DNA of 47,324 bases, from the IMG/VR virus record IMGVR_UViG_3300050821_009483, positions 1-47,324 of that record, one strand, 5' to 3'. The stretch is from a virus. The position numbers were made by a program, and so were the translations under genes. The notes below the pieces were generated by a model. It saw nothing but the letters and a program-made list of their open reading frames with translations. It was not told the DNA's origin and searched no databases. Each line of letters starts with the position of its first letter. The first letter of the stretch is position 1. Shown here in pieces: positions 3,443 to 21,442 of the stretch.

Positions 3443-3604
3443 ATGACCTACCAATATCGAGTAATCGGCAATGACCACAATGTCTACACGGTTGTTAAGT
3501 ACTATGTGTCACCAACCATGGGCCAATGTCATGTCGGCTATCTCAAGGTCGCGGCAACGGATGAGGCGACGGCGTTGCGAGTAGCGAGAGAGGCAATGGA
3601 ATAA
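3443..3604 (+). CDS. small early protein, unknown
   Basis: A 53-aa protein starting MTYQYRVIGNDHNVYTVVKY and ending ATALRVAREAME. The start at 3443 has GGAG 9 nt upstream; a longer in-frame form from 3413 lacks a ribosome site. The pattern (beta strands, then a helix with DEATALRVAREA) resembles small phage proteins that process an input column and end in an amphipathic helix, but I cannot assign a family. It is the first rightward gene and is followed 3 nt after its stop by the hammerhead ribozyme. Confidence 0.6.
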   Translation: MTYQYRVIGNDHNVYTVVKYYVSPTMGQCHVGYLKVAATDEATALRVAREAME

Positions 3605-3606
3605 CA

Positions 3607-3658
3607 GGTCGAAACCCTCTCACGAGGGTCCACACGTTAGGCGTGTGCTGATGAGACC
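3607..3658 (+). ncRNA. hammerhead ribozyme, type II (stem II open)
   Basis: All core elements are present in order: stem II 3' strand GGTC (3607-3610); GAAA (3611-3614); stem III CCCTC/GAGGG with a TCAC loop (3615-3628), closed by the A3614-T3629 pair; GTC cleavage triplet ending at C3630; stem I CACACG/CGTGTG with a TTAGG loop (3631-3647); CTGATGA (3648-3654); stem II 5' strand GACC (3655-3658). Conserved CUGAUGAG, CGAAAC and GUC are exact. Cleavage after 3630 would split the message between the 3443 and 3676 genes, leaving the latter with a 5'-OH hairpin leader. Hammerheads of this topology are known in bacteria and phage-related DNA. Confidence 0.88.
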
Positions 3659-3675
3659 AACTAGGAGTAATGAAC

Positions 3676-3813
3676 ATGCGAACGTTTGAAATCTGGGACC
3701 GTTGGACGAAACTCGGAGAGGTTGACGCTTACAATCCCGATCACGCGATTCGCGAATTCAGCAAAGTTAATGGTGGCGGATGGATCAAAATGTTCGCCTA
3801 CGCAATTCAATAG
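3676..3813 (+). CDS. small early protein directly after the hammerhead, unknown
   Basis: A 45-aa protein, MRTFEIWDRWTKLGEVDAYN to the end FAYAIQ. AGGAG at 3663-3667 sits 8 nt before ATG 3676; an ATG at 3670 is in frame but too close to that site. The ribosome site lies only a few bases after the ribozyme's last stem strand, so folding or cleavage of the ribozyme would change the 5' context of this start. Loosely similar in design (strands, then a helix with DHAIREFSK) to the 3443 product. Family not recognised. Confidence 0.6.
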   Translation: MRTFEIWDRWTKLGEVDAYNPDHAIREFSKVNGGGWIKMFAYAIQ

Positions 3814-4377: not shown

Positions 4378-4393
4378 CCGCACACAAACATTG

Positions 4394-4455: not shown

Positions 4456-4698
4456 ATGACAAACTATAACGGTTACCGTTCTTGGAATGAGTGGAATGTG
4501 TCGCTATGGATTCACAATGATGCAAGCCTGTATCGCATGGCTCTATTGTGGCTCACTCCGGGTTGCGGTCTGACGCGTCGCCAACAGATAGAGGGCATGC
4601 TGCACGAATTGACCCAACTCGGCATGACAAAAACGCCGGACGGTGCCCCCTACACGTTTAGCAGCCTTCAAACAGCTATGCGGGGCATGCTCAAATGA
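4456..4698 (+). CDS. phage NGYRSWNEWNVSLWI-type protein
   Basis: An 80-aa protein whose start (YNGYRSWNEWNVSLWIHND) matches a small family widespread in phages and plasmids, with an N-terminal NGY..W..W nearly invariant. I believe it falls in a domain of unknown function (the DUF7249 type), but cannot verify the number. The remaining part is helical with RRQQIEGMLHELTQLG. GGAGG 9 nt upstream of the ATG lies immediately after palindrome R2, so this is a clear case of the element sitting in the leader of a gene. Its stop overlaps the next start (ATGA). Confidence 0.75.
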   Translation: MTNYNGYRSWNEWNVSLWIHNDASLYRMALLWLTPGCGLTRRQQIEGMLHELTQLGMTKTPDGAPYTFSSLQTAMRGMLK

Positions 4699-16743: not shown

Positions 16744-16998
16744 ATGACAAAGATAATCGAAATCGTAGATACCGATTACTATTCGAATAGTAATTCGCAT
16801 GTGGTGTTGGAAGATGGCGTCAGCATCAAGGATGAGTATGCTGTTTACCGGAAACTTCACTACACGGAGCAACGAACACCAATCTTCGTGGACGGAATTG
16901 AGCATGGCTACACATGCGACTTTGGGGCGTGGCTAATCCACCACGGAAAAGCCCACCCGCCTTCTGAAGATGAATTCGACACATTCCAAGAGGAATGA
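16744..16998 (+). CDS. small acidic protein, unknown
   Basis: An 84-aa protein, MTKIIEIVDTDYYSNSNSHV, LEDGVSIKDEYAVYRKLHYT, then GYTCDFGAWLIHHGKAHPPS and an acidic end. Two strand-rich parts; likely a compact domain. Only a weak AAGG-like site precedes the ATG, and a TTG at 16732 is in frame. It is the first gene after the SSB terminator. Family not recognised. Confidence 0.55.
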   Translation: MTKIIEIVDTDYYSNSNSHVVLEDGVSIKDEYAVYRKLHYTEQRTPIFVDGIEHGYTCDFGAWLIHHGKAHPPSEDEFDTFQEE

Positions 16999-17002
16999 TG
17001 CT

Positions 17003-18376
17003 ATGCAAACAATCCAAGAGAAAAAGCTAATCATCACAGAAGGTCGGCAACGGCAAGAATTCGATCCTATTGCCATGGCCGAGTTGTCGGAGGCCATCCT
17101 CGCACGCGGGCTCATGCATGCCGTGGTCGTGCGAGAGTCGCCCGAGGGATTGGTACTCGTCGCTGGCGAACGCCGTCTCCGGGCCATGAAAGACCTCTGG
17201 ATGCTGGGAGGTCAATTGAAGTTCAACGGGGAGATTGTTCCTGAAGGAGAGATTCCATATGTCACTCTCGGTCAACTTGCGCCCCTCGAAGCTGAGGAGG
17301 CGGAACTCTCTGAAAATTTGCATCGCAAGGACCTTACGTGGCAAGAAAACTCCGCCGCGATGGCAAAACTCCATTCTCTTCGCTCTCGCCAAGCACAGGC
17401 CGAGGGGAGGGTGCATACTGTGGCAGACACAGCCATGGAAACCAAGGGCCGTTCCGACGGCGGTTATCAGGCGGCTGTACGGAAGGACTTAGTTGTTGCT
17501 AAATTCCTCCACCTACCTGAAATCGCCAAAGCGAAGACTGCCGATGAGGCCTTCAAGATCTTAAAACGCCAGGAAGAATCCCAACGCAACGTCGCTCTCG
17601 CAGCCGAGGTCGGCAAAACCTTCACTCAATCAATCCATGAACTCCACAACACGAATTGTTTGTCTTGGATGCGTAGTGCGGAGGCAAACCAGTTTGATGT
17701 TATTCTCACGGACCCTCCGTACGGGATGGGAGCGGACTCATTCGGGGATGCCGCCGGAAAACTCGGGGGAATCGAGCATCACTATAAGGATGACTACGAT
17801 CACTGGAAGTCCCTCATGGACGAATGGTGCGGGCTTGCGTTTCGCGTTGCGAAGCCTCAAGCACACGCATATGTTTTCTGTGACCTCGACAACTTTCACG
17901 AACTGAAGCGAATGATGACCCAAGCTGGCTGGTGGGTCACACGTACACCATTCATTTGCACGAAACCAAACAGTGGTCGTGTGCCCCATCCGGAGCATGG
18001 GCCGAGAAGGCAATGGGAGATGATTCTGTATGCAATCAAGGGAAAGAAACCTACGACGGGCATATACCCAGATGTCATTACGACTATGGCCGACCCCAAC
18101 ATGTCCCACGGTGCGCAAAAGCCAGTCGCTCTTTATCTTGACCTGCTTAAGCGGAGCGTTAGAGCAGGAGACACAGTGCTGGACAGCTTTGCCGGTAGTG
18201 GGACGATTTTTCCTGCCGCTCATGCTTACAAGGTGAAGGCAGTGGGGATCGAGATGAATCCTGAATACTACTCACTCGCATTGCAACGGATGAAAGGATT
18301 GGATGAATCTGCAACTCTTTCACAAGCTCAAGGCAATGCCCTCGCCAATGAATTGCAGTCTCTTATGAGGAAGTGA
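17003..18376 (+). CDS. ParB-like / DNA methyltransferase fusion
   Basis: A 457-aa two-domain protein. Residues 1-about 190 are ParB/Srx-like: IAMAELSEAILARGLMHAVV, LVAGERRLRAMKDLW, AELSENLHRKDLTWQENSAA. Residues about 200-457 are an N4/N6-type adenine or cytosine methyltransferase of beta topology: DVILTDPPYGMG (about 237) before DTVLDSFAGSGTIFPAAHAY (about 395) and GIEMNPEYYSLALQRM. Such ParB-MTase fusions occur in phages and mobile elements and may protect phage DNA from host restriction or mark sites. AGGAA 7 nt before the ATG. The ParB half is a second candidate reader of the dispersed palindromes. Confidence 0.93.
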   Translation: MQTIQEKKLIITEGRQRQEFDPIAMAELSEAILARGLMHAVVVRESPEGLVLVAGERRLRAMKDLWMLGGQLKFNGEIVPEGEIPYVTLGQLAPLEAEEAELSENLHRKDLTWQENSAAMAKLHSLRSRQAQAEGRVHTVADTAMETKGRSDGGYQAAVRKDLVVAKFLHLPEIAKAKTADEAFKILKRQEESQRNVALAAEVGKTFTQSIHELHNTNCLSWMRSAEANQFDVILTDPPYGMGADSFGDAAGKLGGIEHHYKDDYDHWKSLMDEWCGLAFRVAKPQAHAYVFCDLDNFHELKRMMTQAGWWVTRTPFICTKPNSGRVPHPEHGPRRQWEMILYAIKGKKPTTGIYPDVITTMADPNMSHGAQKPVALYLDLLKRSVRAGDTVLDSFAGSGTIFPAAHAYKVKAVGIEMNPEYYSLALQRMKGLDESATLSQAQGNALANELQSLMRK

Positions 18377-21405: not shown

Positions 21406-21442
21406 GAAAAAAGCCCACACCTTAATCGATGTGGGCTTTTTT
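21406..21442. terminator. bidirectional rho-independent terminator between the two arms
   Basis: AAGCCCACA pairs with TGTGGGCTT (about 21411-21439), with AAAAAA before and TTTTTT after, so it works on both strands. It separates the rightward early arm from the leftward late arm; palindrome R7 starts within its T run. Confidence 0.93.

Follow-up and report, generated by a model that had tools for sequence, protein, structure and literature searches.

Type II hammerhead ribozymes were described in bacteria, prophages and phages by Perreault et al. (2011, PMC3088659) and are represented in Rfam by RF02276. In that study, tandem prophage hammerheads cleaved 2-kb polycistronic transcripts in vitro, a set from Agrobacterium cleaved in E. 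coli, and a role in processing long phage transcripts had already been put forward. In the type II consensus reported there, loop I forms a pseudoknot with the 3′ tail, and many copies were noted to be without it. The job of phage hammerheads has been an open question since 2011, and the reason for their gene associations was still termed unknown in 2023 (PMC10085705). We analyzed here a type II hammerhead lying between two small open reading frames (ORFs) of a 47-kb virus record, the whole analyzed stretch of 47,324 nucleotides being referred to as the window. The features are listed below, and the lines from 3607 to 3658 give the complete direct reading of the motif.

3443–3604, plus strand: upstream small ORF with stop codon UAA at 3602–3604; 53 aa from AUG 3443 (GGAG 9 nt upstream), or 63 aa if it starts at AUG 3413
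3606, plus strand: A(−1), 5′ of stem II, candidate partner of a tertiary contact; invariant (169/169) in class A, the subclass defined below
3607–3658, plus strand: type II hammerhead ribozyme, whole motif (direct reading, motif scan, Rfam and our own covariance model)
3607–3610, plus strand: 5′ strand of stem II, GGUC, pairing with 3655–3658 (direct reading)
3611–3613, plus strand: core G12, A13 and A14, GAA (direct reading)
3614–3629, plus strand: stem-loop III, ACCCUC (3614–3619) and GAGGGU (3624–3629) around the loop UCAC, including A15.1-U16.1 (reading, fold, covariation of interior pairs)
3630, plus strand: C17, with predicted cleavage 3′ of this base (hammerhead consensus position, GUC^)
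3631–3647, plus strand: stem-loop I, CACACGU (3631–3637) and GCGUGUG (3641–3647) around UAG, with the apex U-U-A-G-G at 3637–3641 (reading, fold, covariation)
3648–3654, plus strand: core CUGAUGA, C3 to A9, with G8 at 3653 (direct reading)
3655–3658, plus strand: 3′ strand of stem II, GACC (direct reading)
3663–3667, plus strand: Shine-Dalgarno sequence (SD) AGGAG of the downstream gene, 8 nt from AUG 3676 (reading)
3676–3813, plus strand: downstream small ORF, 45 aa from AUG 3676, or 47 aa if it starts at AUG 3670

The hammerhead core was complete, consisting of C3-U4-G5-A6-N7-G8-A9, G12-A13-A14, the pair A15.1 (3614)-U16.1 (3629) and C3630 as H17. Stem II has 4 bp, stem III 5 bp in addition to A15.1-U16.1, and stem I 6 bp with a U3637·G3641 wobble; stem II is open and loops close stems I and III, which is the type II topology. 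The preliminary description of this DNA had reported a complete type II hammerhead at 3607–3658, and direct reading, the motif scan and the covariance model showed its coordinates and topology to be right. The core it had described (CUGAUGA, GAAA, A15.1-U16.1 and GUC) was present at all positions, the stems I, II and III were again 6, 4 and 5 bp plus the closing pair, and the cleavage site it had predicted after C3630 matched the C17 position of the hammerhead consensus. The isolated 56-mer was predicted to adopt the hammerhead fold at −21.8 kcal/mol (z −3.25). By chance, approximately 0.005 such motifs are expected per window on both strands (one motif in 400 windows simulated with matching dinucleotide content), and the motif scan and Rfam detected only one copy in the window. 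An intact type II hammerhead at 3607–3658 on the plus strand was thus confirmed at the level of sequence, and the ribozyme appears to be real and probably active, belonging to a known kind.

The Rfam model RF02276 (Hammerhead_II) aligned end to end with the motif at 31.2 bits, with E-values of 1.8e-4 in a 501-nt search and 0.017 over the whole window. This score is below the gathering cut-off of 37 bits, a curation threshold rather than a mechanistic feature, and no Rfam match at gathering level was obtained. The consensus of RF02276 has a larger loop I than the window copy, and the cut-off was reached by only 4 of the approximately 29 copies tested from the subclass of the window copy (class A). 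A covariance model of our own, based on 47 other copies from phages and prophages with the window and its relatives excluded, gave the window copy 74.4 bits (E 3.3e-17 over 384 kb). The RF02276 search also missed real copies in related genomes, which were recovered by our own scan and model. As the class A model shows, most copies of a common hammerhead subclass escape standard annotation. Two weak RF02276 matches in the contigs G007 and G011 were confirmed by neither our scan nor our model and were discarded.

The relatives of the window's DNA polymerase showed 64–85% identity, and one of the contigs carrying them, G004, was informative for the ribozyme stretch. Its sole match there was to 3598–3672 (82.5%), covering the stop codon, the ribozyme and the SD; the flanking proteins on both sides differed from those of the window, and the fold was kept, an A-U pair of stem I being replaced by G-C. 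In G012 (L149) and L252, the ribozyme occurred at the matching place, upstream of the secreted-protein gene that also follows it in the window, and in L187 this gene block contained two strong copies plus a third, weaker match. The ribozyme was therefore found in the same gene block of four related phage contigs, with compensatory changes of stem I in the syntenic relatives even though the flanking ORFs were unrelated. The more distant relatives G010 and G011 gave no hammerhead match, and their gene content at the matching place differs. In the alignment of the 47 homologues, 99.6% of the base-pair cells were paired, compared with 77% after shuffling and at most 45% when the alignment was slid; both sides had changed in 9 of the 17 pairs, with 160 double-change cells against 44.5. 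Among 53 motifs collected by the core pattern only, 526 of the 530 unconstrained stem-interior cells were paired, compared with 313 after shuffling. Three helices around the core were thus maintained by compensatory change in both homologues and syntenic relatives, and the degree of pairing together with the 160 double changes supports the view that the window ribozyme is an RNA under selection.

The ribozyme is located in the plus-strand arm of the window, which encodes a Dda-like helicase, an exonuclease, a Sak4-like protein, a ParB-methyltransferase fusion and a DNA polymerase; the minus-strand arm encodes structural proteins (tail, head and portal). Judging from the gene content of the two arms, the genes flanking the ribozyme would be early ones. 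The ribozyme lies in the sense orientation between the stop codon and the SD of two co-directional small ORFans, in agreement with the intergenic position proposed previously: 2 nt separate the last base of UAA (3604) from stem II, and AGGAG starts 5 nt past this stem. AUG 3676 is the better-spaced start of the downstream ORF, as AUG 3670 follows the SD by just 2 nt. No PHROG match was obtained for the upstream small ORF, and no relatives of its 63-aa form were found in viral contigs. A sigma-70 promoter scan gave no hit near the operon start, and a DNA similarity search of the ribozyme region against phage records gave no match.

Several other elements were observed in the window. An imperfect palindrome of approximately 48 nt (about GAATTATTGGTAGGAATTAATCTACATTAATTCCTACTAATAATTC) occurs throughout the window in 15 copies spaced 0.7–5 kb apart, at 2684, 4393, 6477, 8031, 12204, 16064, 21435, 23409, 28185, 29900, 30568, 35774, 39713, 43611 and 47243. 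Some copies stand just upstream of gene starts, as at 4393 ahead of the ORF at 4456, and related contigs have the palindrome too; it looks like a genome-wide binding site for a repressor or for partition, or a promoter-operator. The protein encoded at 16970–18376 (plus strand) matched ParB-like families at residues 3–146 and DNA methyltransferase families at approximately 75–450, by which it is assigned as a ParB-methyltransferase fusion; the scattered palindromes occur in the same phage. Thr_leader matched both strands at 21407–21442 with scores below the cut-off, which suggests that a hairpin resembling a bidirectional terminator lies close to where the plus and minus gene arms meet.

Type II hammerheads were very common in viruses of bacteria. 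The core-only pattern was found in at least 120 viral contigs and the scan for the window's subclass gave at least 119 contigs; at least 338 distinct well-formed type II motifs were collected, with a maximum of 11 per contig among the matches listed. Type I motifs were also frequent (at least 111), and type III motifs were fewer (at least 16, counted without a type III-specific scan). A use in phages specific to type II was not supported, as type I was abundant too. Six contigs (L048, L055, L092, L097, L108 and L110) carried 4 to 9 type II hammerheads each within a few kb on a single strand. Serial type I hammerheads, 4 to 6 each, were seen in L286, L336, L347, L369 and L396, and many of these precede an SD and start codon like type II copies. 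Type II arrays between small genes were also present in the isolates L403, L406 (Streptomyces phage Amethyst) and L407 (Streptomyces phage Salutena). The cultured phage Salutena has 12 type II copies in a block of small genes of approximately 10 kb, all 12 in the sense orientation to their flanking genes; 10 lie wholly in gaps of the third-party annotation, and the other 2 overlap the start annotated for the following gene, which suggests that a few annotated gene starts overlapped by hammerheads are mis-called. As a named isolate with 12 copies, Salutena makes operon splitting directly testable.

The placement of the ribozyme relative to genes was evaluated with 298 scorable phage type II copies, a non-random sample picked by patterns blind to the flanks. 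The stop codon of an in-frame ORF of at least 50 aa was located −2 to 8 nt upstream of 73% of the copies (3% at random positions and 6% on the opposite strand), and an SD and start codon followed within 45 nt in 87% (23% and 15%, respectively). Both were found for 63% of the copies, compared with 1% at random positions as well as on the opposite strand, and for 26% of the type I copies. In addition, 85 of the 86 contigs with several copies had all their hammerheads on the same strand.

The fold was also examined in the context of the transcript. The minimum-energy fold of a 201-nt region differed from the hammerhead, which had hinted at an anti-ribozyme switch in the upstream coding sequence. 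This candidate was rejected, as the native upstream 60 nt disrupted the ribozyme fold less than its shuffles in 223 of 330 cases (p 2e-7); in the window, the disturbance was 0.59 kcal/mol compared with 2.64 kcal/mol for the shuffles. The lower disturbance by the native sequence argues for constitutive cutting and not for a switch. In the window, the ribozyme fold cost less than 1.7 kcal/mol when no more than 40 nt of downstream sequence was included and 3.4–4.8 kcal/mol when 80 nt were, so cutting would be expected to occur during transcription or under ribosomes.

The geometry found in 63% of the 298 copies and the lack of any sign of an evolved sequence holding the ribozyme off point to mRNA separation. 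Given the strict geometry, the conservation independent of the neighboring genes and the absent off-switch, operon splitting is clearly the hypothesis to consider first. We accordingly favor, with a probability of roughly 0.7, the reading that a constitutive type II hammerhead cuts a polycistronic mRNA after C3630 for intercistronic processing, leaving both new ends hairpinned. Fold, conservation, orientation and the placement between stop codon and SD are read from the sequences; cutting in the cell and an effect of end protection are what we infer from them. The cut would separate the first small gene from the remainder of the small-gene operon. The upstream mRNA would end in stem III with a 2′,3′-cyclic phosphate, 26 nt past the stop codon, and the downstream mRNA would begin with a 5′-OH and stem-loop I, approximately 32 nt ahead of the SD. 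With stem II being the open one, the cut would fall between two closed hairpins, and the hairpins and the end chemistry would make both ends poor substrates for exonucleases and for the 5′-monophosphate-dependent RNase E, so that the two messages could be translated and decay independently. Such end protection is established RNA biology, which we here extend to the window. Several points speak against the favored reading: type I copies, which are common too, leave no 5′ hairpin, the hammerhead is not the minimum-energy fold of the 201-nt region, and G010 and G011 gave no hammerhead match.

The tight placement could also reflect gating by translation, in which stem II and the core are covered by a ribosome terminating at the upstream stop codon or initiating at the downstream SD, and cutting takes place only when translation of one of the genes stalls or ceases. 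With the stop codon 2 nt before and the SD 5 nt after stem II, a ribosome at either site would cover part of that stem, and this tightness is general among phage copies, so a gated version of cutting is conceivable; nothing requires gating, however. Compact phage gaps explain the tightness equally well (the gap minus the ribozyme had a median of 26 nt compared with 22 nt for ordinary gaps), and a competing upstream sequence was not favored, the opposite being seen. We therefore regard gating as unlikely. Quite unlikely, too, is a damper that separates a gene from its message, speeds decay and lowers the expression of that one gene. Unprotected 5′-OH or 3′ ends can indeed destabilize RNA, and hammerheads in eukaryotic constructs usually lower expression; however, the type II topology leaves a hairpin at each end, the downstream gene retains a full SD and start codon, and a silencer needs no intact SD behind the ribozyme, yet most phage copies have one. 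A remnant of a mobile or selfish RNA (a retrozyme or a producer of circular RNA) with no role in phage gene expression, as known for eukaryotic and satellite-RNA hammerheads (PMC6155905), is highly improbable in view of the synteny and compensatory change in relatives and the placement tied to stop codon and SD, and the single copy in the window means that no unit-length RNA could be released.

The phage copies could be divided into class A, with a 17-nt stem-loop I like that of the window copy, and class B, with a larger loop I. When a pseudoknot was defined by loop I and the 3′ tail sharing at least 4 Watson-Crick pairs, it was found in 94 of 165 class B copies, compared with 33.9 expected by chance in a shuffle test. 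In class A, the pseudoknot was rejected (9 of 173 copies, with 8.9 expected by chance), and the window copy formed 3 Watson-Crick pairs at best, or 4 with G-U. Instead, class A has a U-N-A-N-G apex on stem I and a 4-bp stem II. Within stem-loop I, U at position 7 (U37 of the model) was invariant (169/169), and A at position 9 and G at position 11 were found in 143 and 161 of the 169 copies, respectively. These apex identities and A(−1) are not demanded by pairing alone, and in class A the apex of stem I is likely to make a non-Watson-Crick contact with the shoulder of stem II. Since the 2011 paper had already noted hammerheads lacking the pseudoknot, a pseudoknot-free class A represents a refinement. 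A broader proposal, put forward only tentatively and somewhat short of an even chance, is that class A is a widespread and mostly unannotated subclass in which this contact replaces the pseudoknot, serving as a standard operon-splitter module between stop codon and ribosome site, through which every small early gene would obtain a separate message capped by hairpins.

The kind of ribozyme and the idea of processing were both published in 2011 (PMC3088659); new here are the strict geometry, the subclass mostly missed by Rfam and the cultured phages for tests. The window ribozyme is well placed for a known yet unproven role. It shares with the published type II set (RF02276) the core, the open stem II and the intergenic phage context, in which several copies per operon often occur in that set, and differs in the absence of a Watson-Crick pseudoknot, in the 17-nt stem-loop I with its U-N-A-N-G apex and in the 4-bp stem II. 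Phage type I and type III hammerheads have the same core and often the same stop–ribozyme–SD placement, but their stem I or stem III is open and one of the new RNA ends would be single-stranded. HHphage of the haloviruses HF1 and HF2 (PMC3088659) is likewise a hammerhead of a lytic virus, located 13 nt upstream of a start codon; it is, however, a core variant in a high-salt archaeal virus, whereas the window copy has the consensus core.
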